Shown here: piece by piece, positions 3,082 to 64,000 of the stretch
How the letters are laid out: every line of letters begins with the position of its first letter
Position numbering within the stretch: position 1 is the stretch's first letter
From: Nostoc sp. LPT
Lineage (GTDB): Bacteria; Cyanobacteriota; Cyanobacteriia; Cyanobacteriales; Nostocaceae
Length of the DNA: 64,000 nt
NCBI RefSeq assembly: GCF_017115165.1
Contig: NZ_JABXKF010000090.1
Location: forward strand, 1 to 64,000
Direction of reading: 5' to 3'
Translations under genes and position numbers: made by a program
The notes under the pieces: generated by a model
Databases searched by the model: none
Seen by the model: only the letters and a program-made list of their open reading frames with translations
Told to the model about the DNA's origin: nothing

Positions 3082-4500
3082 TCATATAATTGTATTTATG
3101 GTATTTTTTATTTGCATTTTAGTAAAGTAATTAAACTCTTTTGCTGTTAATTTAAGTGCAATTAATATAATTAGAGTGTCTGTCAATATTATTCCATAAT
3201 ATATACCACTTAAACCCATTAAAATTGAGAATATTGTTACACTTGGAATAAATAAAATTAAACTTCTTAAAATAACTATTACAGCAACTATTTTCCCTTT
3301 ACCTATAGATTGAAAGAGAACTACACCATAGGAAATGAATGGCATTAATGGTATCAATAAATTAAAAATACGAAAGTGAAGTAAATCATCATTAGTAAAA
3401 GTAAGGTTTGGCAACAGCAAGCCTAGAAACGTTTGTGGAAATAATTGTAGAGGCAGCCAAAATAATGTTAACAAAGCAATGACACCAATTATAAAAGTTA
3501 AATAAGCTTTTTTAAGCCTATCGTAATTTATGGCTCCATAATTTATGCCTATCACAGGTTGTAAGGCTTGCGTAAAACCATTTAAGGGAATGAATGCTAA
3601 TAAAGTTAATGTCTGTGTAGCTCCGAACAAGGCTATATCATTCTGTGTTCCATAATGAGAGATGGATTGAAAAACTACAAAACTTTGAATTAAGCTCATA
3701 AATGGAGTCAGTAGTTCTGAGATTCCTACTGATAAAATATCGGGTAGTAAATCTCTTGCTAGAACCAATTTTATCGGATGAACTGGGATAGAACTTTTCC
3801 CAGAAATAAAATAGGTTAATATGAGAACACAGTAAACAAACATTGCAATAACTGTAGCGAGGGCTAATCCCCGAATTCCCCAGTGAAATATACTAATAAA
3901 TATGCTATTTAAGATAATATTAATGATAAGAAAAATAGCAGCAAATATCATACATAGTTTTAGTTTACCTTCAGATTTGATCAGATGGTTAGCAGAAACC
4001 CCTATGATACAAAACACTGAACCAAGCATATAAGTCTTAAAAAATTCTGCTCCATCTGAGGCAACTTCACCACTTCCTCCCATGAATACAACTAATTTTT
4101 CACCAAAACTGTAGCCAATGATTGTCAGCGCAAAGGAGATAACAACACCCATTACTATTAAGTTGCCAAATATTTTGGACTGAGTTTTGATATCTCCAGA
4201 ACCAATAGCTCGACTGAGAACAGAAGCAGAACCTACTCCAACTAAATAAGCAGAACCAGCCATAAGAGAAGTTAGTGGTAAAGCAAGAGATATACCAGCG
4301 ACAGCAGTTTCACCAATCAGTCGTCCTGCAAATAAAGCATCAACAAAAGTGCTTGAGCTTAGTAGCACCGTTCCTAAAATACCAGGAGTTGATAACTTGA
4401 ACATCAGTTTAATGAGATTGCCTTGGAGGATCTCATTTGTCACTTGAGATTGTTTTTGGGAAGTCATTTTTAGGTTCTTAGCTTGATGCTGTTGACTCAA
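3082..4500 (-). CDS. MATE-family multidrug/oligosaccharide-type efflux transporter (start may be the internal Met at about 4467)
   Basis: About 12 hydrophobic segments; N-terminal LSTPGILGTVLLSSSTFVDALFAGRLIGETAVAGISLALP typical of MATE. Confidence 0.9.
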   Translation of the reverse strand: MSQQHQAKNLKMTSQKQSQVTNEILQGNLIKLMFKLSTPGILGTVLLSSSTFVDALFAGRLIGETAVAGISLALPLTSLMAGSAYLVGVGSASVLSRAIGSGDIKTQSKIFGNLIVMGVVISFALTIIGYSFGEKLVVFMGGSGEVASDGAEFFKTYMLGSVFCIIGVSANHLIKSEGKLKLCMIFAAIFLIINIILNSIFISIFHWGIRGLALATVIAMFVYCVLILTYFISGKSSIPVHPIKLVLARDLLPDILSVGISELLTPFMSLIQSFVVFQSISHYGTQNDIALFGATQTLTLLAFIPLNGFTQALQPVIGINYGAINYDRLKKAYLTFIIGVIALLTLFWLPLQLFPQTFLGLLLPNLTFTNDDLLHFRIFNLLIPLMPFISYGVVLFQSIGKGKIVAVIVILRSLILFIPSVTIFSILMGLSGIYYGIILTDTLIILIALKLTAKEFNYFTKMQIKNTINTII

Positions 4501-5524
4501 CTTTGACCAAACGGCTAACGCAATACTGCTTCACCGCTTTCAACTCCATTTCTTTTCCAGAGTTAAGTGTGCTGATGACCTCACCACTGGCTTCAACTCT
4601 GGCTTCATAGGCACCAGATACGCTGCCATCTGGGACAGCAAAATCAATACGAACTTCTGCCCAATCGACCTCTTGTCCTTGAGCAACTTCTTCAATAGCA
4701 AGTACTTTGCCAGTTTTCAAGTAGTCAAGCCAAGTCCAACCCAATTGTGTCCAGATTTCGCGCTCGGCAATTTGCTCAAACTTGGTTAAACCCGTCCATC
4801 CTCGGTAGAATTTATGCAAGTCTGCAACTAAACCATTTCTATTTACCAGTAAATCAAGGGTTTCAGGTTCTAAATGTCCCCACAAGCATCCTTGGGGTAA
4901 ATCAACTAAGGTGGGGGCGAATTGATGACCGCCAAAGTGAGTTGTTTGCCATACTCTTAAATTTCCGTTGGCAGCAGGAGCATATTCCTTTCGTAATCGG
5001 CGATATAGGGGAGTCCCAAATCTGCCACAAGCAAGATCAACTTGAGCATGTGTGCAAACCATCAGTTCGCGAATGTGACTGGTTTGTTGCTGATACTGCT
5101 GAAATTCTGATACATTGTTGGGCTGTTGTATCAACTGTTTCAATATTGCCGTTACTAAAGTAATTGCTTGTTCCTCTGGGAGAACAAACTCTTGTTTCTC
5201 AAACTGAGAAAAGAGTTTGGCAGGACGATAGTAGTACAGCACGCGGGTAAAGCCTGGGCGAGAGTACTCGCGATCGGGAGCAATTAGCATTGGTCTGATG
5301 TTAATTCTATGCTTGACGATGACCTCTTCAAAAAAATCTATTAATGCCTTGATTGTTAGATTTTTATCAAAAATATCTTCCGGCCAAGGTTGGGGAATTT
5401 CCATAATCAACCAGTGGTCACAAGTACCTGCTGTACCAATGGGGTCTTCTCCGTTAGCTTTGGAAACCTGTGAACAAAAACGACAATCTTTGATGGGTAG
5501 TTGATCGGTCTGTTGAGTTTGCAA
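4478..5524 (-). CDS. Sucrase/ferredoxin-like (Suc_Fer) family protein, thioredoxin-like [2Fe-2S]
   Basis: CRFCSQVSKANGEDPIGTAGTCDHWLIMEIPQPW; VCTHAQVDLACGRFGTPLYRRL; HFGGHQFAPTLVDLPQGCLWGHL. Confidence 0.85.
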   Translation of the reverse strand: MQTQQTDQLPIKDCRFCSQVSKANGEDPIGTAGTCDHWLIMEIPQPWPEDIFDKNLTIKALIDFFEEVIVKHRINIRPMLIAPDREYSRPGFTRVLYYYRPAKLFSQFEKQEFVLPEEQAITLVTAILKQLIQQPNNVSEFQQYQQQTSHIRELMVCTHAQVDLACGRFGTPLYRRLRKEYAPAANGNLRVWQTTHFGGHQFAPTLVDLPQGCLWGHLEPETLDLLVNRNGLVADLHKFYRGWTGLTKFEQIAEREIWTQLGWTWLDYLKTGKVLAIEEVAQGQEVDWAEVRIDFAVPDGSVSGAYEARVEASGEVISTLNSGKEMELKAVKQYCVSRLVKVESTASS

Positions 5525-5686: not shown

Positions 5687-6416
5687 TTAGTCTAAAATCT
5701 TAGCTATGGTAGTGAATACCTGCCGTCGATTATCTTTGAATTCGCGGCGACCGTGCATAAATCTCGAATTATCGATCATAGCTAGATCGCCTGCTTGCCA
5801 CGATATTTCTTGGGTAAATTTGTCGTAAAGTTTCTCAAGTTCATCGGCAACTTCCTCATGAAGCTTTGAACCATCTTCAAAAATTTCCATCCAAAACTTG
5901 CTTACAATCATCAATGGTTTCACCACCGTCAATCCATTGATTTAACATATCTAATGGCAAATGTTCAAAAGTAAATTTTAGTTTTTTCTCAACAAATAAC
6001 TGTTTCAGATGTTGGCTCATTTCCTTCCATAGTTGCACACCGTCCCAAAATAGAGTTTCGCCTCCTTCTTGTGCAGGCGTTTTACAGCAAAACCAAATAA
6101 CATCAGGTTGATGAGGACTAGAACCATGCTCGGTATGAGCAGGACTAGCACCCATTCCGTTATCTACTGAATTAACAAAATCAACCGAGTCAATACTTGT
6201 TTTCGTAGGATCTTTAAGGTAGCTATAACTGAATTTTTCAGAAAATTCTTTCATCAGCATGGGAGTTACCCCAAAACCTCGAAAAAGAACAACTCCAGAT
6301 GACTTGAATAGCTCAAGAATTTCCGCTTTAGAAAGACGTAAAATATCTTCACAATCGTTAGTACTGTATACTATTTTTCCTGTTCCTGTTCCTAATGACT
6401 CGATTTTACTAATCAT
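5687..6416 (-). pseudogene. TauD/TfdA-family Fe(II)/2OG dioxygenase split by a frameshift
   Basis: ORF 5877-6416 has HTEHGSSPHQPDVIWFCC and QEGGETLFWDG. ORF 5687-5932 continues the fold in another frame (WQAGDLAMIDNSRFMHGRREF). The switch lies near a 4-A run at 5893-5896. Confidence 0.8.
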
Positions 6417-24066: not shown

Positions 24067-25707
24067 TTAAATTGATATTTTTGCAGCCATTTGGATTTGG
24101 TCATTTAAAACCGCTTTAATATCTTCTTCTGTCGTTAACGGATTAGCAATCACTGCACGCATAGCAATTATAGGAATTCCACTGCCAAAAAGGATATCTT
24201 TTTTTGTCGTTCGGGAAATAAAAGTATGACCAATTTGACGCTGATTTTTTTGTAAGCATTCATTAAATCTATTGATAATTTGATTATCTATCTCTGTCAA
24301 TTTATTTTTAGCACGCGCCTCTCTAAATTGTTTTGGAATATAGCGATAAGTTAACAAATTCGTATCAGGTTCTGCCAGCAATTCAAATTCAGGCATAGCC
24401 GAAATACAAGCAGCCATGTATTGAGTTTTTCGGATTCCTTCATTAATCAAAAACTCATATCCCTTAACTCCAATTAGCTTTAAACCCGCGTGTAAAAATA
24501 AAGCCATGCCTGGTCGAGAACCTTCTAAAGCGCGTTTACCTAAATCAAACGATCCCTTACGCATGGTATAACTAGCGTGTTTTTCGATCGCCCCAGGCAG
24601 ATATGGATCACGGAAAAAGACCATACCAATGCCCATTGGTAGATATAGTTGTTTATGTCCATCAATAGTGACTGAATCAGCTTTTTCTATACCAGCAATC
24701 TTATGCCGATATTGCTCAGAAAAAATCAGCGGACCACCCCAAGCAGCATCTACGTGAAAATGAGCATTAGCTTCCTGTGCAATTTCTGCAATATCTGTAA
24801 GGGAATCAACTCCACCAGAGTCTGTTGTACCAGCAACTCCCACAATTGCAATAATTAGCAAGTTTTTGGCACGACAATTTGCAACAGTTTGGCGCAGTGC
24901 TTCTATATCAACTCGATTATTACAGTCAGCAGGGATTCTGATCAAACTATGCGTACCAATGCCCATTAAATCCGCAGCTTTATCAAAAGAGAAATGCATC
25001 AAGTCAGAGCCAATAATCACTGCTCCTTTATAGCCATAGAAATCTAGAGCAGCTGCTAAACCTTCTTTTTCTACACCAAGAAATCCATCTTTCGGTCCTA
25101 GTAAAGCATTTCGCGCACACCAAACTGCTGTGATATTTGCCACTGTTCCACCAGAAACCAAGATTCCAAGTGTACTCAAATTGTTTTGAATATGTTGAGT
25201 ATAAAAACCATCAGAGAAACTATAAATTTGTCGATGCAACATAGCCAAAGCTTCACGTTCGCAAAAGCTTAGGGCTTTAGCTGTCTCTATTTTGACGGCA
25301 TTTTGGTTCATCGCCGTCATTAGTTTAGCCAAAGGGCGTACAAAACTAGGAAGTGCCGAGGTCATGTGACCTATAAATCGTGGCGAAGATGTATGTATTG
25401 AATGAGCAACAACATTGTTGCCTATGTATTTGAGATAGTTCTCAAAATTAGTCGGCTGAAGAGGAATTTTACTATCAGAAAATTTTTCTAATAGTGACTC
25501 TAAATCAATGTTGGTATTAGAATCACTTGTGCTTAAAAAATCTTGCGATAAGCTATCAGTTATTTCATCGATTCGTTTCTCTATAGAGTTTGCTTGATTG
25601 CATGAAGCAAACAATTGCATTACTTGTTCTTCTATCTCATTATCTAATGTTTGCTCAGATTCCAAAAAAGAATTTTTGTTTAGCATTTCTTGTTTGCTTG
25701 ATGTCAT
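24067..25707 (-). CDS. PLP-dependent decarboxylase, PanP-like (putative aspartate 1-decarboxylase)
   Basis: AHSIHTSSPRFIGHMTSALP, SGGTVANITAVWCARN, HVDAAWGGPL, SVTIDGHKQLYLPMG (PLP Lys). Overall resembles the PanP-type group II decarboxylases as I recall them. Confidence 0.82.
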   Translation of the reverse strand: MTSSKQEMLNKNSFLESEQTLDNEIEEQVMQLFASCNQANSIEKRIDEITDSLSQDFLSTSDSNTNIDLESLLEKFSDSKIPLQPTNFENYLKYIGNNVVAHSIHTSSPRFIGHMTSALPSFVRPLAKLMTAMNQNAVKIETAKALSFCEREALAMLHRQIYSFSDGFYTQHIQNNLSTLGILVSGGTVANITAVWCARNALLGPKDGFLGVEKEGLAAALDFYGYKGAVIIGSDLMHFSFDKAADLMGIGTHSLIRIPADCNNRVDIEALRQTVANCRAKNLLIIAIVGVAGTTDSGGVDSLTDIAEIAQEANAHFHVDAAWGGPLIFSEQYRHKIAGIEKADSVTIDGHKQLYLPMGIGMVFFRDPYLPGAIEKHASYTMRKGSFDLGKRALEGSRPGMALFLHAGLKLIGVKGYEFLINEGIRKTQYMAACISAMPEFELLAEPDTNLLTYRYIPKQFREARAKNKLTEIDNQIINRFNECLQKNQRQIGHTFISRTTKKDILFGSGIPIIAMRAVIANPLTTEEDIKAVLNDQIQMAAKISI

Positions 25708-25847: not shown

Positions 25848-28800
25848 TTACTGTGTTGCTGCTCGGCGCTCTTTCCTAACTTGTTTTCGCCTCTGTACTG
25901 AAGCTGTTCTGCTCTCCGAGTGATGAGCAGGTCGTAAAACAGATGTTTCTTCACTAGATTCCTGACTAAAATATTTAACCAGGTGACTGATAGTCGGATA
26001 TTGAAACATCTCAACCAAGCTGAAATCTCGCTGAAATACTTTTTGCAACTTGCTAGGAACTTGAATTAAGAGCAATGAATTACCACCAAGTTCAAAGAAA
26101 TTGTCATGGATTCCCACTCTTTCTACTTGAAGTAATTCTTGCCAAATAGATGCAATCACTTTTTCAACTTCGGTCTTCGGCGCCACATAGGATACCTCTA
26201 ATTCTGGTCTTGAAGCCTCTGGTGCAGGTAATGCACTGCGGTCTATTTTGCCGTTGGGTGTTAGAGGTAGGGCGTTCAGCGTTACAAAGCTTGAGGGTAC
26301 CATATACTCAGGTAATCTTTCTTTGATAAACGCTCGTAAGTCGCCGATCGAAAGGGTGGGTTTGTTTGCTATTATTTCGTCAGCCAGTAGGTGTGTTTTT
26401 TCTGTGGGTGTGACTTGTGTCCCTTCTGCTTGTTGTATCGGAACAACATAGGCTACTAGGCGTTTATCTCCTGGTTGCTCCTCTCGTGAGACAACTACAG
26501 CCTCCACTACTCCCGGATGTTGACTCAAGATAGTTTCTATCTCACTTAATTCGATCCGATATCCCTGGAATTTCACTTGATGATCTACACGACCCAGAAA
26601 CTCAATGTTACCGTTGGGTAGATATTGTGCCAAGTCTCCAGTTTTATACAGTTTGTTGTTTGGGTTTGTCCCAAAGGGATTGGAGATGAAACGCTCTATG
26701 GTTAACTGTGGTTGGTTTAAGTAGCCACGCACCACGCCTTCGCCACCAATGTAGAGTTCACCAGGAATACCAACAGGTACTGGTTGTAGATGGCGATCGA
26801 GAATATAAATTTCTGTGTTGGCAATGGGGCGTCCGATTGGTATCGTATTGCCGACTTCTTGCAGGGGATAGGTTGTAGACCAAATAGTCGTCTCGGTGGG
26901 GCCATACATGTTATAAATTTCTGCCGAGAGTTGAGTCCGCAACTGTTCTGCTAGAGAAACGGGTAACGCCTCACCACCAAGCATCAATTTGCGGAGTGAA
27001 CCCATCGCACTCAGCGCCTTATTATCCTGAATTAATATTCTTGCAAGAGACGGAGTGCATTGCAGATGTGTCACATTGTGCCTGGCAATTTGAGCAGGTA
27101 GGGAATAGTCAGTGTCATCTTTGTCTATTTTTTTGTTGCTCAATTCTCTGACTGTATTTAGGTGATGTAAACTAGACAACACCGATTCCACATCCACACC
27201 AAAATCGATCAGACATGCAACCTCATCCACCCCGATCGCCTTGAGTCGGTTAATCATCCGCAAACAAGTGCTGGGTGTGCCTAACAAACTGCTTCTTTCA
27301 AAGTACCGATTAAAGGCGTAATTCAGCAGTTGCTCTTGCTCTTGTGCAGTAAAATTCTCTGCATTAATATCGTGACCTAAGCTTTTTCCTAAGTTATTCA
27401 ACAGACTCAGAGAACTTTTCAAGTACTGGTAAAAAGGTTGCCGCACCTTTTCTCGCACAACATCAATGTCCTCACCCACGAAGGTGTGAATCATCAACGT
27501 CACGTGACCTGCTCCCAGTCCATGTCCGTGTTCCTGCCAGGATTGGCGATAAACCGCAATTTTTTCCTCTAGTTCCTCTACATTCTGATCGAGTAAATGG
27601 GTAAGCAAGTTGGCACCAATTTCACCCGCCCGACGAAAAGTTTCTGGACTACCAGCTGCTGTAACCCAAATCGGCACTTCCGGCTGAATCGGTTGGGGAT
27701 GAATCTTCACTTCTACTTCTTTGCCACTACCTCCTGGCAGAGTTATCGATTCTCCGCGCCAAAGTTGGCGGACAGTTTCGATGTCACGAAACATGATTTG
27801 GAAGCGATCGCTATACTTGTCTGGTGCTAGGACAAAATCATTGGCGTGCCAACCGGAAGCAAAGGAGATACCAACCCGGCCTCGCGAAAGGTTATCAACT
27901 ACAGACCATTCTTCAGCAACTCGGATCGGATTTTGTAAGGGTAAAACAATACTACCAGCACGAATTTGAATACGCTCTGTAATTGTGGCGATCGCTGCAC
28001 TGACAACGGAGGGATTTGGGTATAGACCGCCAAATTCATGGAAGTGTCGCTCTGGAGTCCAGATGGCTGCAAAGGCGTGTTTGTCGGCAAATTTAGCACC
28101 TTCAAGTAGTAAGTGATACTTATCTGTGCCTGCCTGTACCTCGTCACTAGCAAAATAGAAAAGGCTAAATGCCATTTCTTTATCTGTGATTTTTTGGTCT
28201 ACTTCAGTAGTAAAAGTAGTAGGTCTTGGATCACCATTAATCACAACTTGAAAACCGCGTGTCAGCGTCCACAACAACTCTAACACTGAGATATCAAAGG
28301 AAATGCTGGTAACTGCTAGCCAAGTACCTGGATGATCGTTTCCAATACTACCGTCCATTCCTGTAAAGAAATTGACAACGTTGCGATGACTGACCATCAC
28401 TCCCTTTGGTTTACCTGTGGAGCCGGAAGTGTAGATCGTATATGCTAAGTTGTCAGTTGACAAGGCTGTTGGGGGATTCTGATCACTAGCGCTTTGAATT
28501 ATCTGCCAATCTCTATTTAGGCAAACCACCGATGCGCCAGAATTTGGAAGTTTTTCCAGTAATTGTTGTTGAGTCAACAGCACTGGCACTTGAGCATCTG
28601 CCAACATAAAAGTTAGGCGTTCCTGCGGGTATGCTGGGTCTAGCGGTAGATATGCACCACCTGCTTTGAGGATGGCTAATAGTCCGACGATCATATCGAG
28701 CGATCGCTCTACACAAATCCCTACCAATACTTCTGATTTTACTCCCAGCGATCGCAAGTAATGCGCCAATTGGTTAGCTTTCGTGTTGAGTTCGCGGTAA

Positions 28801-30278
28801 GTTAACTGCTCATCTTTAAACACCACTGCGACTGCATTAGGTGTGCGTTCTACTTGCGCCTCAAATAATTGATGAATGCATTGTTCTTGAGGATACTCAA
28901 TTTCTGTATCATTCCACTCCCGCAGCAATTGAGATTTTTCTTGTCCAGTCAGTAACGACAAATCTCGAAGTTGTTGTTCAGGATTGGCAACTATACTTTC
29001 TAACAAAGTCTTTAAATGCCCTAATATCCGATTAATCGTCGCACTATCAAAACGACGGGTATCATACCCAATCGACAGTAATGAATCTGAACCAGGATAT
29101 ACCTGTAGGGTAAGAGGATAATTCGTCTTTTCAAATATCCGAGTTTCCCCTATTACCATGCTTTGAGCTAGCTTTTCTCCAGTATCATCTACTAAATAGT
29201 TATTAAAAACTAGAAGACTCTCAAATAGTGGCAACCCACGAGGAATTTGACTCCATTGTTGAATCTGTATTAGTGGACTATACTCATACTGACGCATTTC
29301 CACTTCTTGAATTTGCAGCTTTTTCAACCAAGGTATAAGCAAATCATCAGCAGGGACTTGTACCCGTAGCGGCAATGTGTTGGCGAAAAGTCCCATCATG
29401 GATTCTGCTTCTGCCAATTCAGTCGGTCGGCCTGAAGATGTGGCGCCAAAAACTATATCTGACTCACCGCTATATCGGCTTAAAAGTATAGCCCAGGCTC
29501 CCTTGAGTAGAATATTTAGGGTAAGATGATACTTTCGTGCCAGGGAATTCAAGGCATCTGTCGTTGTTACCGAAAGTCGGGTTTGTTGACAATCATGGTC
29601 TTCGTCTTCGCTAGAGAAAGTACCGACAGCTTTGTCCATCATTAGTGATGTCGGTATCGTAAATCCTTCAAGCATTTCGCGCCAGTAAATTTCAGCCTTT
29701 GATATATCTTGCTGCTGTAGCCAAGAAATGTATTCTTTAAAGGGACGAGGACTTTCTAAATGTAAATCTTCACCTTTGCAAAAGGCATTATAGAATTCAT
29801 AAAATTCTTTCCATAGCCATGTTAAAGACCACCCTTCCATCAATATATGGTTATAGCTGAAGACAAATTGATAAGCGTTATCAGCCACCTGAATTAATGC
29901 CAAACGCATCAGTGGAACTTGGGAAAGTGTAAAGCCTCGTTTGCGATCTGCTGCTAAAAAAATTTCTAACTGCTTTTCTTGTTCCGGCAAAGAAAGTTCG
30001 CGCCAGTCTTGAAAATCCCAAGGCAAGTCTACTTGTCGATATACCACTTGATATGGCTTATCAAGATTTTCCCAGTAGAAGGAGGTACGCAAAATTGGAT
30101 GCCGATCTAAAACTTGCTGCCATGCTTTTTGGAAAGCTGGAACATCAACTTGAGTTTGTAAGGCGTAGCAAAACTGCTCAAAGTACATCCCCGAATTAGG
30201 TGTAACCAGCGTGTGAAAAAGCATACCCTGCTGTAAGGGTGAAAGTTCGTATATATCTTCAATATTATTTTGGTTCAT
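25848..30278 (-). CDS. NRPS, C-A-PCP with a luciferase-like monooxygenase domain inserted in the A domain; A code DILQMGMIWK (Gly-like)
   Basis: C: [35 protein letters not shown]. Insert: [12 protein letters not shown]…[17 protein letters not shown]…[10 protein letters not shown]. A resumes at [14 protein letters not shown]…[24 protein letters not shown]. Confidence 0.95.
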   Translation of the reverse strand: [1476 protein letters not shown]

Positions 30279-36576: not shown

Positions 36577-37584
36577 TTATGAAGTGTTAACTAAGTACTT
36601 AAATAAGTCATCAATGACTGCGTTCATTGCTAAAACATCAAAAGCGGACCAATAGTCTAAATCTACAATATAGACTTGATTTTGTTGAACTACCTTCAGT
36701 TTTTGCCACAAAGGAGATTGTTGCAGCTTTTCTAAAGCCTGTTCATAAGCATTATTTTTCCGAGTACAAAGGAATAAAATATCACCATCGATTTCGGATA
36801 AACGCTCGTAGGAAATATTAGGCATTACCCAAAAATCTCCCCTCTGTGCAGGTGGGCGTTTTAGTCCGATATCATCTAGAACTACGCTAGTAGAAAACTT
36901 TTTCCCATAAGTATACACTCCTCCAATTTCTGGATACGAAGTAGCAATAGATACTTGTATCTGATGGCGGCGATCGCCCAAGGCTTGTTTAAGTTGTTCA
37001 ATTCGTTGCCAATATTCGTCGATTAACTGTTTTTTCTCCTGTTCCTTATCGAAGATCTTGGCAACATCTTCTAAATGTTTTTGCCAGGGAGGAGGTGGAG
37101 CAGAAACATCGATGACAACTGTGGGTGCTATCTTAGATAGCTGCGTATAGATATCCTGAAATTGGAACCGCTTAATCGACAAAATTAAATCGGGTTTTAA
37201 TAGGAGAATCTTTTCTAAACTTGGTTGCTCGTAGGTTCCAACAGATTCAACTCCATCTGCTTTGCTTTGAAGATATTCTGGGAAAGATTTATCTAGACTC
37301 CGTGTATATCCAATGGGTTTGATACCCAATGCTAAGGTGCTACAGAAAGTACCCTTCCATAGAGTCACAACTCGTTGAGGGTTGAGAGGAATGCACGTTT
37401 CACCCATTGCATGTTGCACGATTCTGCAAGAGGCTTGAGATGCTTCTGATGAAGCAGGCGTTGTACCCCGCTCAATCGCCCTGCTACTACACGCTGAGAC
37501 GATCGCGATTATGAGTAGTGATAACAATAGCTGTTGCTTTACCCCCCTCAATCTCGCCTGATAAGGGTGTGGGGAAGTTGGCAT
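36577..37584 (-). CDS. Iron-siderophore ABC transporter substrate-binding lipoprotein (FecB/FepB-like)
   Basis: Lipobox-like LLLSLLIIAIVSACSS; NPQRVVTLWKGTFCSTLALGIKPIGYTRS; PDLILSIKRFQ. The listed ORF starts at 37698, but the first ~38 aa are out-of-frame remnant/repeat sequence, so Met at 37584 is a better start. Confidence 0.85.
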   Translation of the reverse strand: MPTSPHPYQARLRGVKQQLLLSLLIIAIVSACSSRAIERGTTPASSEASQASCRIVQHAMGETCIPLNPQRVVTLWKGTFCSTLALGIKPIGYTRSLDKSFPEYLQSKADGVESVGTYEQPSLEKILLLKPDLILSIKRFQFQDIYTQLSKIAPTVVIDVSAPPPPWQKHLEDVAKIFDKEQEKKQLIDEYWQRIEQLKQALGDRRHQIQVSIATSYPEIGGVYTYGKKFSTSVVLDDIGLKRPPAQRGDFWVMPNISYERLSEIDGDILFLCTRKNNAYEQALEKLQQSPLWQKLKVVQQNQVYIVDLDYWSAFDVLAMNAVIDDLFKYLVNTS

Positions 37585-37612
37585 CGATTCCCTCCCCTTA
37601 CCAAGGGTAGGG

Positions 37613-37726
37613 CTAGGGTGGGGTCGATTGACGCAACTGACGAATCGTCTCAGGGATCGCCTCCAATAACTCATCCAGTTGTTGATCCACCTGCTCATTC
37701 GTAAACCTCACTACACAAATTCCCTT
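37613..37726 (-). pseudogene. C-terminal remnant of a DUF559 endonuclease-like protein
   Basis: Minus strand reads KGICVVRFTNEQVDQQLDELLEAIPETIRQLRQSTPP*, like DUF559 C-termini (GIxVxRFTNEQV), flanked by C/G-rich repeat-like sequence. Confidence 0.55.
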
Positions 37727-37750: not shown

Positions 37751-40426
37751 TCAAAGCTCAAAGGAAATCGTCCCCTGCACCGTCAACGGATCACCCCGAA
37801 AAACTCGAAACCTATTGAAAGAAGTATCAAAGTAATCGACATCAAATAAATTCCTAAAATTAAGGGCAGCGCGAAACCGATGGCGCTTGTAAAAAATCGC
37901 AGCATCTGTCCTCAGATAGCTGGGTAGTTGAAAAGTATTTAATGTATCCCCTGGCCGTTCTCCGACAAAGAATAATCCCACGCCAGCGCCGAACCCTTGC
38001 AAAGTACCCCGTTGAAATTCATAGCTTGTCCACAGGTTAAAGGTATTTGCAGGGACATTACGAAAAGGAAGACCTATGGGAAGCGTGTTGTCCTCAGTAA
38101 CTTTTGCATCGTTATAGGCATAGCCCGCAATGATGTTCCATCCCGGCAAAATCTCTCCTTCAAGGGTCAGTTCAACACCTCGGCTGCGCTGCTCACCCGT
38201 CTGAATCGAAAAGCCTGGTGGTACATTGGGTCTCTCGTCAGCCGTCAAAACATTGGTACGGGTCAGATCGTAGAGAGCCAGAGTTGCTGAAAATCGGTCA
38301 TTCAAATCTGCCTTGACCCCAACTTCATATTGGGTGCCGCGCTCCGGTTGAAATACACCATCATCAAAGCTGGTGCCAATCGTTGGGGTAAATGAGCGAC
38401 TGTAGCTGGCATAGAGTGAAATTGGCTTAACTGGCTGATAGACAATACCGACACGAGGGCTAAATGCATTGCCAGACTGACTTGTTTGTGTATTAGCGAG
38501 CCGATCCTCGTCAGTTTGACTAAAAGTATCAAACCGCACGCCCAGCAGCAGCTTTAAATTTTCAGCCAGTGTTATCTGGTCTTGAACATAAATGCCCAGT
38601 GCATCTATTGTGCTAAAATCATCAGTACTGAAAGGATCATCACCAATAGGCTGACCATATACAGGATTGAATAGGTCAATTGGAGATGCCTGAAAAGTAG
38701 ACCTAGCTTGTCCGAGTTGCCTCCTAGTGAGATTAATGCCTGTTACCAATTGATGACCAATGCTACCCGTAGAAAACTTACCAACAGCATAGGTGTCAGA
38801 GTTCAAAAATCCGCCGTAATAGTCATCATTATCAGAAAAGCTTCGGCTCAGAGTCCGGTTATCGTCAGCTAAGGCGGTACCGAAGGTAAATCTCCTATGT
38901 TGCCCAGTTTGCGTAAATCTCAAGGCATTTCGTAGCTGCCAATTTTCGCTAAAGCGATGTTCGAGGTCATAGCCAAGTCGAATCGAATACGAACTTTCGA
39001 TATCATCCCGCTCACCCACATTCCGGTTACGTGGTATTTCTCCATTTGGATTTGGCAACACTGTTCCCACAAGCGGGAGACCAGAGGATTGATCGGCAGA
39101 TTGTGGTCGATCAACATATTCGGCTGCTAGAGTTAATTTTGTGCGATCGCTAATCTGCCAAGTGAAAGTAGGTGCCACAAAGTATCTCTGTGCGTCGTAG
39201 AAATCAAAGAAACTTTCTGTAGTTTGAGCTGCCAGGTTCAGTCTGTACAGTACAGTTCGGCTGTCATTGAGCGGTCCGGAAAGGTCAATAGCACCGCGAT
39301 AAAAGTTGAAACTACCCGCAGAAGCTGACAACGAATAGTAGGGTTCACTCAATGGCTGTTTGGTTACATAGTTAACAGATCCTCCTGGCGCAGCTTCACC
39401 ATAGAGAACGGAGGAGGGTCCTCTGAAAACCTCAATCCGTTCGATCCCTGCCGTCTCAAAGCCAATTATACTATCACCTGTACTTTCGCTCAACCCATTC
39501 CTCAAGACATTATTGCCAGAAGAAAAACCTCGGAGGAAAACAGTTGAATCAAACACTGATTTGGAGGTAGTTCCAAATCCTACACCAGGTACATTTCTGA
39601 GTGCTTCAACTACACTAGTGACGTTTTGATCCCGTAGCACCTGTTGAGGTATAACCTGAATCGATTGGGGAATATCGCGCAGGGGTGTGTCGGTTCGGGT
39701 ACCTACACTGGTATTAGGTACACGATACCCATCTTCCTCACCCGTCACGACTAATTCAATCGGGTCATCCGCTTGTGCCGATGGTGTTTCCTGGGGTGTT
39801 TCATTCGCTGGCTGCTCAGGTTTCGGCTGTTGTGGTGGCTGCATTGCAGTTGTAGCAGCTGTAAAACCAATAATCAGCCCTTCATCCCCATCAAACAACT
39901 CCACAACTGGCAATCCCGCCTCACCCGCCACTGTCACCCGAATAGTATTGGCATCCAGATTTATGACAGTTATCTCAGTAATACCCTCAACTGGGTTTTG
40001 GGAACGGAATGTGAACGAATCACCACTGGGTAAACGCAATTGAGCATTAGGAATATCAGCAATAAAGTTATTATCAGCACTGCGATTGGTGATTTGGAGT
40101 TGTTGTCCTTGAGTTGTCTGTAAAATCACCTCCACACCTTTATCAGTGGGATTAGCTTTCACCCCAGTCACCTGGATAACATCTCCTTGGGAAGGGGGAT
40201 TAGTTGGTGTTGGCGATTGCACTAGCATTTGGGCGCTAGTGCTGGGACGCTCGATCTCACTGAGTTGGCGAATCTCTCTAATTGAATGGGAATTACGTAG
40301 TACCGATGCCACAGATTTACTCTGTATTTCTGACTTGGGTAGTTCTTGAGCAGTTGCGCTCATTGCATACCACAACCAAACAGAACTCGTCACTAATAAA
40401 ATTTTCGATAACTTCTTTGTTCCCAT
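37751..40426 (-). CDS. TonB-dependent siderophore receptor with N-terminal AMIN domain
   Basis: AMIN-like GVEVILQTTQGQQLQI…; plug RDIPQSIQVIPQQVLRDQNVTSVVEALRNVPGV; barrel ending GTISFEL. Confidence 0.95.
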   Translation of the reverse strand: MGTKKLSKILLVTSSVWLWYAMSATAQELPKSEIQSKSVASVLRNSHSIREIRQLSEIERPSTSAQMLVQSPTPTNPPSQGDVIQVTGVKANPTDKGVEVILQTTQGQQLQITNRSADNNFIADIPNAQLRLPSGDSFTFRSQNPVEGITEITVINLDANTIRVTVAGEAGLPVVELFDGDEGLIIGFTAATTAMQPPQQPKPEQPANETPQETPSAQADDPIELVVTGEEDGYRVPNTSVGTRTDTPLRDIPQSIQVIPQQVLRDQNVTSVVEALRNVPGVGFGTTSKSVFDSTVFLRGFSSGNNVLRNGLSESTGDSIIGFETAGIERIEVFRGPSSVLYGEAAPGGSVNYVTKQPLSEPYYSLSASAGSFNFYRGAIDLSGPLNDSRTVLYRLNLAAQTTESFFDFYDAQRYFVAPTFTWQISDRTKLTLAAEYVDRPQSADQSSGLPLVGTVLPNPNGEIPRNRNVGERDDIESSYSIRLGYDLEHRFSENWQLRNALRFTQTGQHRRFTFGTALADDNRTLSRSFSDNDDYYGGFLNSDTYAVGKFSTGSIGHQLVTGINLTRRQLGQARSTFQASPIDLFNPVYGQPIGDDPFSTDDFSTIDALGIYVQDQITLAENLKLLLGVRFDTFSQTDEDRLANTQTSQSGNAFSPRVGIVYQPVKPISLYASYSRSFTPTIGTSFDDGVFQPERGTQYEVGVKADLNDRFSATLALYDLTRTNVLTADERPNVPPGFSIQTGEQRSRGVELTLEGEILPGWNIIAGYAYNDAKVTEDNTLPIGLPFRNVPANTFNLWTSYEFQRGTLQGFGAGVGLFFVGERPGDTLNTFQLPSYLRTDAAIFYKRHRFRAALNFRNLFDVDYFDTSFNRFRVFRGDPLTVQGTISFEL

Positions 40427-59300: not shown

Positions 59301-60991
59301 ACTGGCATTTGAGAATCTTTTAGGATAAAATCTTTTCTTTCTAAGGGATAGCTAGGATCAATTGGTATATAAGCACCACCTGCTTTTAAGATAGCTAAAA
59401 GTCCAATTAGCATTAAAGGTGATCGCTCGACACAAAGTCCCACCATTGCATCTGGTTTCACACCTAATTGTTGTAGATAATGAGCTAGCTGGTTAGCACG
59501 AGTGTTTAATTCTTGGTAGGTAACTTGCTGGTTTTTATAAATAACAGCAATGTTTTCTGGTGTGCGAGCTACTTGTTCTGCAAAAAGTTGATGAAAACAT
59601 TTATTTATTGGAAAAACAGTTTGTGTATTATTAAGCTCAACCAATAGTTTGTGTCGTTCATTATCGCTAAGTATTTCTAATTCGCTTAGGAATGTATGAG
59701 GATGATTAGTTGCACTTTGTAAGAGAGTGGAAAATTGTCCCGCTAAACGTTCGATATCTTCTTGTAAAAAGAACTCTGAATCATAGTGCCATTCGGCGTG
59801 AAGAGAGTCTTGTGTACGTATAAATAATAATTTTATTTTAAACTTATCAAAACAAACATATTGCTGTGATAGAGAAAACGTGACTGCATTTGTAGTCAAA
59901 AATTTAACATTTTGCTCTATAAAGTCGAAACAGAAAGGGAAGAAAGGTACATCGTTGATAGCTTTATCTAATCCGGAAATTAATTCCCAATTAAAACAAT
60001 CTTGCCATTCAGATGCTTGATTTTCAGCAAAAATAATTTGCTCTAAAACTTCGCTCAACTTTAAGCTACCTTGAAGATAACAATCTACTGGTACATATTT
60101 GGCAAGTAGTCCCAGCATTTCTTGAAGTTCTTCTTCCGATCTACCATCGCAACTAGTACCAACAACCATATTTGATACATTAGTTAAACGCCATAGTAAT
60201 ATTTGCCAACATGTTAGTAAGAATATTAATTCTGTAGTATTACATCTTTCGGCGATCGCGGTGATTTTATCTGCTAATTGACACGAAATTATCTGAGTGA
60301 AAACTTGAGGTTGAAATTTAATTTTACTAGAAAATAGATTTTCATTTGGTAGCTTCAAATTGAAAATATGGCTGATATCTTTTTGTCGCCAATATTCTTT
60401 CCCAATTTCCGCTTCTTCGGATTCCAATAATTCATTTTGCCAATCTGAAAAAACAATGTATTGTACTGGTTCATTTGTGATGCTATCATCATACAAATCT
60501 CCAGTGTAAGCACGACTTATTTCTGCTACGAAATTATTAAGTGAGGTTGCATCTGCGTATAGAGCAGGTAAGTTTAACAGCAATAGATATTTAGATGCTG
60601 ACAGAGTAGCTAGAGATATCTGTAATGAGGATGATTTCTCAAAGTGAAAAGTTTGCTGTTTAGCAGATTCAATAACTAATCCAACAGCATTTTTTTGTTC
60701 TTCAGGTTTCATCGCTCTGAAGTCGTGTTCTTCTATTAAGACATTGCCACTATTTTCAATCACTTGCAGTGGAATACTCATCCCTGGTAAGCAACGAAAA
60801 CTAGTGCCAAGAATTTCATGTCTCTTGACAACAGTTTTTAAGGCAATTTTAAATGCTTCAATATTTAAATCACCTGTAATTTCCACTGTACAAAATGAAC
60901 GATAGGCAAGGCTATGCTTATCTTGTTGTAGTAGCCATAAATGTTTTTGTTGCGGCGAAAGTTGAAAACCCTGAATTACTTTCTTATTCAT
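56384..60991 (-). CDS. NRPS, C*-A(Asn)-PCP-E; code DLTKIGEVGK; C* lacks HHxxxDG
   Basis: C-like domain with [16 protein letters not shown] at the core motif. A: [59 protein letters not shown] and [24 protein letters not shown]. Confidence 0.95.
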   Translation of the reverse strand: [1535 protein letters not shown]

Positions 60992-61072: not shown

Positions 61073-63655
61073 TTAAAAATGATGTTGAAAAGGCTCACCC
61101 ATCGCAGTTAAAATTTTTCTTGAACCAGAGTAAGGATTGCGTCCGTGAGCTGTCAACATATTATCTAACATTAATATATTCCCTTTCTGCCAAGGGTAAA
61201 CAATCGTTTCTTGTTGATAAGCTTCACGAATTTCTGCAATAACTGAGTCTTCAATAGGAGAACCATCACCATAAAAAGTGTTGTAGGGTAAATCTTCTTC
61301 TGTAAACTCGTTGAAAAATTTTTCTCGAAATTGTGTTGGTAAACTCGAAACATGCCAAAAAACAACATGATTAAACCAAACCATTTCACCCGTTTTTGGA
61401 TGTTGTGCTATGGCTGGACGAACTTGACGAGTTCTTAAACGATCGCTATCTTTCCACTCAACCTGAATGCAAGCGTTATAACAATACTCTTCCATCACAG
61501 CTTTGTCTGTTGTGTGAAAGGCTTTTTGCCAAGGTAAACCAAAGCCATCACCATAGTTGCGAACTAACATCCACCCTTTTTCTTGAAAGCGTTCTCTAAT
61601 CTGAGGGTGAATATGTTGAAATACTTTTCTCACATCAGCAATTGGAGTTTCTCCTCCTTGATTTGCAGGTTCAATGCAGCAAAACCATATCTTCATCGGA
61701 TAGGTACTGGCATAGGATGACTCATTATGTAAAGCAATGGTTTGGTCAGCTGGAAATTCGGTAGATGTATAAACTTTTTCGCTTAACTTAGTACGAGGTG
61801 TGGAAGATTCTATGTAAGGCATTAATTCAGGACATACGGCACTAACGAATTGCTCAAAATCCTCTTTTTGATTAATAGCAAAGCCTCTAAATAAAATTCC
61901 TCCATATTTCAACAATTTATTGATAATGAATTGTTGATTGTTCTCAGCCCAGATTTGTAAATTAATATCACTGACTTTAGGCGTAATAACTAAAGGTAAA
62001 TTTACTTCAGGTTGCAAAAATTTTTCTGTTATTAATTCTTGTTCAGATAAATTGATTACTGTAGGTTTGGGTTGTGATTTAAAGGCTTTAAATTTTTGGC
62101 GACGAGCTTGTTGAAATTCCTGTTGCTTTGTCTCGTGTCTTTGCTTATCTGCTGTTTTCAGTATTTCTTTGATAGCTGTAAATTTAATATTAGGTTGAGC
62201 AACAACTGCACGCAAAATTATTGCATAATCTGTAATAAATTTAGCAATTTTGGAAGCATTAAATAAGTCTGTGCTGTATTCCAACCTACCACTCAACCCT
62301 TGTTTGCTTTCCCACATATTAAGTAGTAAATCAAATTTAGCCGTACCATTGTCAATATCTTCAAAAACTTTCAATTTCAAACCCTCTAGTTCCAGTCGCG
62401 ATGTTGGGGCATTTTGCAGGACAAACTTGGATTGGAACAGAGGTGTATGAGCCAAATCTCGCTCTGGCTTCAGAGCTAATACTAACTTGTCAAACGGCAT
62501 ATCCTGATGTTCATAAGCGGCCAAAGTTACCTCACGAACACGTTTCAACAATTCCTGAAAAGTTGGGTTACCAGATAAATCAGTACGTAATACTAGCTGA
62601 TTAACAAAAAAACCAATAATCTTCTCTGTTTCTGGAAAATTACGATTAGCAACATCAGTACCTACAACAATATCATCCTGCTTCGTGCAGTAATGGATCA
62701 AGGTCTTGAATGCTGCCATTAGAGTCATAAATAGAGTTACTCCCTCCCGATGGCTAAGTGCTTTAATTTCTTCACAAAGTTCTTTTGGCAGTTCTACATG
62801 TTGCCTGGCACCGCGAAAAGTTTGGATTTCAGGACGGGGATAGTCGGTAGGCAATTCCAGCACAGGTAAGTTAGCAAGTTGCTGTTTCCAGTAAGATAAG
62901 TGCTTCTCCATTACTTCTCCTTGCAGCCAGTGATTTTGCCAATAGGCGAAGTCTGCATATTGAATTGGCAACTCTGGCAAAAGTGTTCGCGTAGCGTCTG
63001 TCTGCGACACGCTGCGCGAACGCAGAGAAGGTTCTCCTTTACTGAAAGCTGCATAAAGGGTGGAAAATTCACGAAAAAATATACCAGTTGACCAACCATC
63101 AACGGCAATATGGTGGATTGTGAATAGCAGCAAGTATTCCTGCAAACTTGTTTGTAGGAGTATTAGTCGCAGCAAGGGACCAGTTGCTAAATCAAAAGGT
63201 TTTTGAGCTATCTCTGTTGTTAGTCGGTTGACTTGTGCTTGCCGTTTAACTTCTGGTATAGAGAGCAAGTTCACCACTGGTAGGGTCACAGTTACAGTAG
63301 GATGAATAACCTGAACTGCTTGTTCCTCAACTACCTCAAAAGTAGTACGTAACGCTTCATGGCGTCGCACAATTTCCTTGAGACTTTGTTCTAGGGCATC
63401 TACGTTAAGCGCACCTGTTAGCTGTACACACACTAGTTCACTGTAGGAAGCATTGCCGGGATCTAACTGTTGAAGAAACCATAGCCGATGCTGAGCAAAA
63501 GACAGAGGAACAGAACCTTGGTGGGTGCGACGAGGAATAACTATTTGTTGAGTATTAGGCTCATGCTGACCCCGTAAGCGCTTTTCTAAAATTGCTTGTT
63601 TAGCAGGTGAGAGCTTAGAACGTCGTTTAATAATTTCATCTGTTTTGCTATCCAT
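61073..63655 (-). CDS. Stand-alone condensation domain fused to a TauD/SyrP-like Fe(II)/2OG dioxygenase
   Basis: C: HHIAVDGWSTGIFF. TauD: GGILFRGFAI, IALHNESSYASTYPMKIWFCC, QGGETPIADVRKV, MLDNMLTAHGRNPYSGSRKIL. ATG at 63655 preferred over the TTG at 63697. Confidence 0.92.
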   Translation of the reverse strand: MDSKTDEIIKRRSKLSPAKQAILEKRLRGQHEPNTQQIVIPRRTHQGSVPLSFAQHRLWFLQQLDPGNASYSELVCVQLTGALNVDALEQSLKEIVRRHEALRTTFEVVEEQAVQVIHPTVTVTLPVVNLLSIPEVKRQAQVNRLTTEIAQKPFDLATGPLLRLILLQTSLQEYLLLFTIHHIAVDGWSTGIFFREFSTLYAAFSKGEPSLRSRSVSQTDATRTLLPELPIQYADFAYWQNHWLQGEVMEKHLSYWKQQLANLPVLELPTDYPRPEIQTFRGARQHVELPKELCEEIKALSHREGVTLFMTLMAAFKTLIHYCTKQDDIVVGTDVANRNFPETEKIIGFFVNQLVLRTDLSGNPTFQELLKRVREVTLAAYEHQDMPFDKLVLALKPERDLAHTPLFQSKFVLQNAPTSRLELEGLKLKVFEDIDNGTAKFDLLLNMWESKQGLSGRLEYSTDLFNASKIAKFITDYAIILRAVVAQPNIKFTAIKEILKTADKQRHETKQQEFQQARRQKFKAFKSQPKPTVINLSEQELITEKFLQPEVNLPLVITPKVSDINLQIWAENNQQFIINKLLKYGGILFRGFAINQKEDFEQFVSAVCPELMPYIESSTPRTKLSEKVYTSTEFPADQTIALHNESSYASTYPMKIWFCCIEPANQGGETPIADVRKVFQHIHPQIRERFQEKGWMLVRNYGDGFGLPWQKAFHTTDKAVMEEYCYNACIQVEWKDSDRLRTRQVRPAIAQHPKTGEMVWFNHVVFWHVSSLPTQFREKFFNEFTEEDLPYNTFYGDGSPIEDSVIAEIREAYQQETIVYPWQKGNILMLDNMLTAHGRNPYSGSRKILTAMGEPFQHHF
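62985..63021. repeat. Short palindromic dispersed-repeat-like insertion within the C-domain coding sequence
   Basis: GTTCGCGTAGCGT-CTGTCTGCGAC-ACGCTGCGCGAAC: 13-nt arms with one mismatch. Encodes the extra RSRSVSQTDATRT absent from sibling C domains. Confidence 0.8.
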
Positions 63656-63697: not shown

Positions 63698-64000
63698 CTA
63701 AGTAATTACTTGAAAATTTACATAAGAAGGTACAGGCTGAATCCGACTTAAATCATTTTCAAAAGTCACTGAATTGCCATTCTGATCAATTTCCTTAAAC
63801 CCTGCAAATTTATAAGATATGTACATCATTCGATTGCGATCGTTTGGTACAAACTCTGCTAAAAGACGAACATTACTGCTTTGAGCCAGACCCATAATAT
63901 GATTTAACATAATTGTCCCGACTCCCCTCGACATAACACGACAAGACATCAGCAAAAGCTTGACTGTCCATGACTTAGGCTGACATTCAATCAGAACTAA
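63698..64000 (-). CDS. FkbH-family HAD-type protein, C-terminal part only (start lies outside window)
   Basis: Frame open to 64000: LVLIECQPKSWTVKLLLMSCRVMSRGVGTIMLNHIMGLAQSSNVRLLAEFVPNDRNRMMYISYKFAGF, like FkbH C-termini. Confidence 0.75.
   Translation of the reverse strand, partial: LVLIECQPKSWTVKLLLMSCRVMSRGVGTIMLNHIMGLAQSSNVRLLAEFVPNDRNRMMYISYKFAGFKEIDQNGNSVTFENDLSRIQPVPSYVNFQVIT

Follow-up and report, generated by a model that had tools for sequence, protein, structure and literature searches.

A two-domain condensation-TauD protein of Nostoc sp. LPT as the putative front half of a split, asparagine-coded NRPS module

What is the function of a protein that carries a condensation (C) domain and a TauD-type Fe/2OG hydroxylase domain, with no adenylation (A) or carrier (T, PCP) domain beside them? 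Such a protein, P0001, is encoded in a 64,000-nucleotide stretch of DNA from Nostoc sp. LPT (contig NZ_JABXKF010000090.1, positions 1 to 64,000), which was analysed as a whole and is called the window here. The first-pass annotation of the window regarded this fusion as an unusual format, which might beta-hydroxylate in trans the Asn bound to the carrier of the following protein and might also acylate that residue with an upstream starter. In the present study, the gene and its partner are compared with their counterparts in 198 genomes (the window's own and its relatives), in each of which four candidates were scored; the counts of places are lower bounds.

The coordinates first given for the gene, 61073-63655, were right, and the gene lies on the minus strand, with its ATG at 63655 and its stop codon at 61073; the plus strand of the same interval holds many stops. 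On P0001, Pfam detects a Condensation domain (residues 46-496, E = 2.6e-107) and a TauD domain (PF02668, residues 563-849, E = 1.7e-48) but neither A nor PP-binding domains, which confirms the annotated fusion of an intact C domain with an Fe/2OG enzyme. The motif HHIAVDG occupies residues 181-187, and the domain has the features of an active, LCL-like C domain; in the tree it clusters with ordinary C domains and not with the interface domains described below. The TauD domain is joined to C and forms the C-terminal end of the protein. Its Fe/2OG residues H643, E645, H837 and R846 are all present, and they are invariant across 14 aligned C-TauD proteins. The AlphaFold model of P0001 is poor (mean pLDDT 62.6, pTM 0.41) and gives the reading no structural support. 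The single PHROGs match covers the C domain; it is to a family with no known function and is uninformative.

This two-domain gene, with products 75-87% identical to P0001, recurs in three relatives, namely Nostoc CCCryo 231-06 (87% identity), Fischerella muscicola and Nostoc CHAB 5715 (L014, L015, L017); therefore, the two-domain form is no sequencing accident. These data also make it scarcely credible that P0001 is a decayed remnant without function. A second TauD-like gene near the cluster end (window 5708-6416, minus strand) is indeed broken, with a 179-aa N-terminal part that carries HxE and the distal-His part in another frame, but P0001 retains all of its catalytic residues and is conserved in the three relatives. 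The features of the gene and its surroundings are collected in Table 1.

Table 1. Features of the C-TauD gene, its partner gene and the siderophore uptake genes in the window
Feature	Position	Strand	Remarks
FkbH-like gene, C-terminal end, just upstream of C-TauD	63698..64000	minus	rest on contig C10 beyond the window
C-TauD gene (P0001), putative front half of split module	61073..63655	minus	860 aa
Condensation domain of P0001	62168..63520	minus	active motif HHIAVDG at 63095-63115; Pfam, motif, tree
TauD/Fe-2OG beta-hydroxylase domain of P0001	61109..61969	minus	HNE 61721-61729, distal His 61145-61147, Arg 61118-61120
Partner gene P0002	56384..60991	minus	interface-like C, A (Asn code), T, E; 1535 aa
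Degenerate condensation (interface) domain of P0002	59642..60967	minus	PALYADA replacing HHxxxDG at 60548-60568
Adenylation domain of P0002	58112..59584	minus	code DLTKIGEVG (nine readable positions, Asn type)
Carrier (T/PCP) domain of P0002	57863..58042	minus	Pfam
Epimerization domain of P0002	56483..57808	minus	TIGR01720 match at its end; clusters with E domains
TonB-dependent siderophore receptor	37751..40426	minus	
Iron-siderophore type periplasmic binding protein	36577..37698	minus	

In the partner gene P0002, Pfam finds two Condensation stretches that flank A and T. The second is an epimerization (E) domain, as indicated by the TIGR01720 match and by its place among E domains in the tree. 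The first shares 26% identity with the C domain of C-TauD, carries PALYADA where HHIAVDG is expected and clusters with interface domains; P0002 as a normal C-A-T-E module was ruled out, its C-like domain lacking the motif. Since this domain is degenerate, the Asn module can draw on no condensing domain other than the C of C-TauD. The two genes are best read as one module, with C-TauD as its front half and interface-A-T-E as the remainder. In 2019, Reitz and co-workers reportedly described siderophore beta-hydroxylases (IbH_Asp, IbH_His) that have an inactive, condensation-like "interface" domain. The degenerate domain of P0002 appears to fit this type of domain, the family being compared by description, and the window module shares with the IbH type an Fe/2OG TauD domain, the C-terminal position of the hydroxylase and a partner that opens with a domain lacking HHxxxDG.

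The constancy of this pairing was followed over the fetched loci, one set of 44 being annotated completely. Domains were assigned with the window's own and the cyanochelin B domains as queries; the cyanochelin B sequences served as the reference for the interface and hydroxylase classes, and 15 of the 30 listed sequence records were taken in (AP017310 as two stretches). Only TauD-bearing loci entered the TauD counts, which cover TauD domains of at least 150 bits with the own-genome matches (L001-L010) set aside. On this basis, 64 of the 86 distinct TauD domains are fused behind a C domain, and an interface-led gene follows 63 of these 64 in the fetched loci. At the remaining one, from Azospirillum oryzae (L068), the interface HMM matches the start of the next frame at 126.8 bits, and the profile of active C domains has no match there. 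Conversely, TauD precedes 80 of the 81 interface domains with context, and the exception (L111) lies behind a truncated frame. The two kinds of condensation-type domain are clearly distinct in their motifs: HHxxxD is retained in 73 of the 74 C domains before TauD, whereas the second His is found in none of the 78 interface domains (one of them, cut by a contig end, gives no data). A control search for HHxxx[DE][GAS] recovered 164/186 ordinary C domains, 69/74 C domains before TauD and 1/78 interface domains. The HxE/H/R residues are retained in all 82 TauD domains of at least 250 aa, the window's included. Furthermore, in a tree of 80 condensation-type domains, some chosen and some randomly drawn, all 25 interface domains fall on one side of a branch (SH-aLRT 95), although they span Cyanobacteria, Proteobacteria and one Acidobacteriota MAG.

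These counts bear on the idea that C-TauD is an independent enzyme, that is, a free hydroxylase acting in trans that is not tied to the interface domain and whose C domain goes unused for chain building. P0001 is a separate protein, and among the 72 TauD domains that have C before and an interface domain after them, TauD and C are separate genes in nine. Nevertheless, the idea is improbable in view of the nearly universal retention of the C active site, the near-invariant pairing and a partner that has no other active C domain.

The junction between the two halves has a regular form. The gene border before C varies between loci, but the TauD/interface border is constant: in none of 78 pairs do TauD and the interface domain share a frame, and the boundary always falls between two genes. 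A natural TauD-interface fusion, which would be proof of contact, was thus not obtained from these pairs, and a long-frame candidate in G086 was ruled out because its TauD is encoded by a gene of its own (358 aa, L103). The distance from the first Met to the shared motif has a median of 10 residues in interface-led frames (n = 66; 10 without motif or Met) and of 38 residues in C-led frames (n = 96; 18 without). After the last domain, a median of 6 residues remains in TauD-ended proteins (n = 90), compared with 39 in T-ended (n = 141) and 30 in E-ended ones (n = 42). Because the frames have almost no tail on either side, the sequences suggest that TauD and the interface domain meet directly.

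The divergence of TauD was compared with that of its neighbors by a mirror-tree analysis of 62 rows in which all four domains were long enough. The correlation was highest with the A domain of the next protein (r = 0.86), followed by the interface domain (0.79) and the preceding C domain (0.72), although the latter is fused to TauD in most rows; only 0.2% of half-samples failed to place A above C. Among the 39 fused Asp-coded rows, the values were 0.88 for C, 0.87 for the interface domain and 0.84 for A. Since the excess of A is gone within the Asp-coded set, the overall r stems from substrate classes and common descent. It reflects substrate switching, as would be expected for an enzyme matched to the residue of the next A domain. 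The mirror-tree was rejected as proof of contact, neither the interface domain nor A showing an excess within the Asp-coded set.

The residue that the module loads was read from the A domain of P0002, whose code positions were placed by eye using motifs that we take to be those of the GrsA literature. The resulting code is predicted to be of the Asn type, which agrees with the first-pass annotation that C-TauD precedes an Asn-type A domain in the direction of transcription. In one survey, DLTKIGEVGK is given among Asn-type codes and is said to suit the Asn-derived cyanoalanine unit of albicidin as well, and DLTKVGHVGK is common to Asp and Asn domains (PMC12283262). The code DLTKIGHV has been described for pyoverdine Asp modules (PMC3207962). 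At the seventh code place, E stands in each of the 12 A domains with a readable code that partner the window's TauD clade, and H stands in both cyanochelin B modules (DLTKIGHVG, Asp) and in most others.

The TauD tree, built from 82 of 86 rows with TauD domains below 250 aa left out, leads in the same direction. The window's TauD falls in a clade of 13 rows (100/99), 12 of them Asn-coded and one without a code, and together with three Gln-coded rows these form a 16-row clade (100/99). The latter is apart from a 47-row clade (100/99) of mostly fused Asp-coded enzymes, which includes the fused cyanochelin B TauD, and the window's clade is also apart from that of the stand-alone CcsK. By both the partner A code and the TauD clade, the window's enzyme does not belong to the Asp-specific subtype (IbH_Asp / CyanoBH_Asp). 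Many positions differ cleanly between the 12 Asn-coded and the 41 fused Asp-coded TauD domains, for example Y648 instead of H after the metal motif and W767 instead of H. Four more Asn-coded rows (L060, L061, L063 and L070) lie elsewhere in the tree; therefore, this code has evolved or been acquired repeatedly. Relatives also have TauD/interface modules with Gln-like (L027, L103, L113) and His-like (L066, L110) A codes, DAWQFGLID and DSALIAEVW being presumably the Gln and His codes. No name for the Asn-coded TauD branch was found in the literature searched. A genome-mining study of 2026 reports two cyanobacterial Asp hydroxylase clades and further unassigned hydroxylase clades near transporters (PMC12971057), and by its description the window's clade may be one of the unassigned ones.

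The surrounding genes place the module within a longer assembly line. The window ends inside the FkbH-like gene, and contig C10, which holds the remainder of this gene, carries acyl-CoA dehydrogenase, 3HCDH and ACP genes. FkbH, acyl-CoA dehydrogenase, ACP and 3-hydroxyacyl-CoA dehydrogenase directly upstream of C-TauD (L011 1-3375 and window 63698-64000) are the usual set for a glycerate-derived PKS extender, and the same order of this cassette before C-TauD was observed in L014, L015 and L060. Farther upstream on C10 are a carbamoyltransferase, a PKS module, a cupin and a FAAL-T-C-A-MT-T starter protein. Such FAAL- and PKS-type genes would suit a starter or branch function, in which the C domain takes the upstream starter alone and C-TauD is the loading protein for a separate chain. 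This is very improbable, since the starter protein and the PKS module stand before C-TauD, which therefore has a position in mid-chain, and close relatives (L016, L018-L022) have this C-TauD attached to the end of whole C-A-T modules.

Downstream, the cluster continues with NRPS and PKS modules, the siderophore receptor, the binding protein and a C-A-T-TE end, so that the receptor and uptake genes that mark a siderophore cluster lie inside it. In 9 of the 12 Asn-clade genomes searched, a TonB receptor also lies no farther than 28.5 kb from C-TauD; the contigs of the remaining three (G005, G028, G108) end too close by, on one side or both, to allow a judgement. The window's own genome (G000) has 33 matches to the cluster's TonB siderophore receptor, which is unusually many. 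Receptors are frequent in these genomes, and therefore TonB proximity is support and not proof.

This context is compatible with another substrate. A rival reading is that Asp is the residue loaded, contrary to the A-domain code, and that the product carries beta-OH-Asp as in the cyanochelins. The receptor and binding protein in the cluster and the TonB receptors near the other Asn-clade genes would suit beta-OH-Asp, which is the classic iron ligand and the usual ligand of this format. On general chemical grounds, the alpha-hydroxy-amide of beta-OH-Asn would be a poorer iron ligand than beta-OH-Asp, and therefore Asp stays viable as the real substrate. It is nevertheless unlikely, because the readable partner A domains of the clade have E and not H at the seventh place without exception, and the TauD clade is separate, with fixed differences such as Y648 and W767. 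The titles of papers naming "hydroxyasparagine" together with "siderophore" do not indicate a beta-OH-Asn siderophore, a search at the level of titles that does not prove absence.

Several further genes of the cluster deserve mention. An NRPS A domain with a Gly-like code (window 25848-30278, minus strand) is interrupted by a luciferase-like monooxygenase of the MupA/Atu3671 family (TIGR04020) and occupies a non-terminal place in the assembly line. A PanP-like pyridoxal aspartate decarboxylase gene (24067-25707, minus strand) lies between PKS and NRPS genes, and a similar gene adjoins another C-TauD cluster in L132. A sucrase/ferredoxin-like protein (PF06999) is encoded at 4478-5524 (minus strand). 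In L062, L109 and L116, genes of the PF06999 type likewise neighbor those for a siderophore receptor and a binding protein; the protein may therefore be a siderophore-linked redox protein.

Taken as a whole, we hold with good confidence that C-TauD and interface-A-T-E form a single module, which would hydroxylate, condense and epimerize Asn for a siderophore-type product. From these comparisons we infer the following course for the hydroxylation, its timing, the docking of TauD and the product. The A domain of P0002 would load L-Asn on its own T domain, and TauD, held by the inactive interface domain of P0002, would use Fe(II), O2 and 2-oxoglutarate to hydroxylate Asn-S-T at the beta carbon. 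As the module's only active condensing domain, the C of C-TauD would join the upstream polyketide/peptide chain to the Asn residue, which the E domain would then convert to its D form. A siderophore-type lipopeptide is the probable product. The role proposed in the first-pass annotation, in-trans hydroxylation of the Asn that the following protein holds on its carrier, is likely, and the second proposal is supported in so far as the C domain could attach an upstream chain to the Asn residue. Fused hydroxylases are cited as following a rule of S at the beta carbon (as cited in PMC12628792). If it applied to P0001, the epimerized residue would be (2R,3S), to which we give little weight because the window's TauD lies outside the clades behind the rule.

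A wider proposal is put forward as a real possibility, though tentatively. A separate branch of interface-partnered hydroxylases would make D-beta-hydroxy-Asn, and its Gln-coded sisters beta-hydroxy-Gln, in cyanobacterial siderophore lines, and the resulting metallophores would bear an alpha-hydroxy-amide where an alpha-hydroxy-acid is usual; everywhere, hydroxylase and interface domain would form a subunit junction, never one polypeptide, without appended docking tails. If the Asn branch is true, beta-OH-Asn joins the residues made by this machinery, and the TauD clade together with E or H in the A code becomes a sequence test for Asn versus Asp siderophores. The TauD/interface boundary would be a natural cut point for engineering.

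The format itself is widespread. C-TauD was found at no fewer than 76 places in at least 70 of the 198 genomes, which rules out that it is rare, and the two-domain form (frames of up to 900 residues) makes up at least 13 of the 76 places among the matches listed. In Trichormus variabilis ATCC 29413 (L064 9462-13159) and Nostoc carneum NIES-2107 (L065), the carrier before the two-domain C-TauD is a separate gene, and therefore the module is split even further. The supposed unusual format is not supported, because it recurs in the genomes searched and the same order has been published for potashchelin, variochelin and cyanochelin B. The first-pass annotation had also stated that its proposal would fall if the architecture proved common and already characterised; this is largely so for Asp and not for Asn. 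An orphan-looking fusion thereby becomes a rule, C-TauD plus an interface-led gene being one module, and genome miners can place the beta-hydroxy residue correctly, with the partner A code telling which residue it is.

Several known systems are close to the window module. As in IbH_Asp and IbH_His, a C-terminal TauD-type hydroxylase is followed by a protein with an inactive condensation-like domain and then A and T, in a siderophore-type cluster. However, the code is Asn and not Asp or His, TauD belongs to a clade of its own, and C is the only other NRPS domain on the protein. In the cyanochelin B system, an NRPS-fused hydroxylase stands before an Asp module and the product contains beta-OH-Asp (PMC12628792). 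Its synthetase in Leptolyngbya NIES-3755 (AP017310; CcsFGH/CcsI and CcsK/CcsL) likewise has C-TauD followed by an interface-A-T gene 17 bp on; BAU16013 and BAU16012 were taken, by position, as the end of CcsFGH and as CcsI, and CcsL is BAU16061 (PMC12628792). In contrast to the window, C-TauD there lies behind two full modules, the code is DLTKIGHVG (Asp), and both TauD domains belong to other clades.

Potashchelin is described with the domain order FAAL-ACP-C-TauD-C-A(Asp)-PCP (PMC7100376), in which PtcB likewise has C-TauD at the protein end and C-A(Asp)-PCP after it. For the variochelins, the account includes a TauD domain embedded in VarG and a varG null mutant (PMC10999976). Compared by description, PtcB and VarG differ from the window in being proteobacterial, Asp-specific and not two-domain proteins. 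SyrP is likewise a TauD-family beta-hydroxylase for an NRPS Asp residue, but it is stand-alone and has no C domain, whereas P0001 is not a single-domain protein. For 3-OH-Asn in the cyanobacterial scytocyclamides, cupin 8 enzymes have been proposed (PMC7524897; PMC8471579). These enzymes, LxaF/LxaG, share with the window the proposed residue, D-3-OH-Asn, and a cyanobacterial host, but they belong to an unrelated family and are proposed to act after peptide bond formation. Against this background, the window module appears to be of a known kind, and what is less ordinary is its separate, well-supported clade of Asn-coded TauD domains with Gln-coded sisters.
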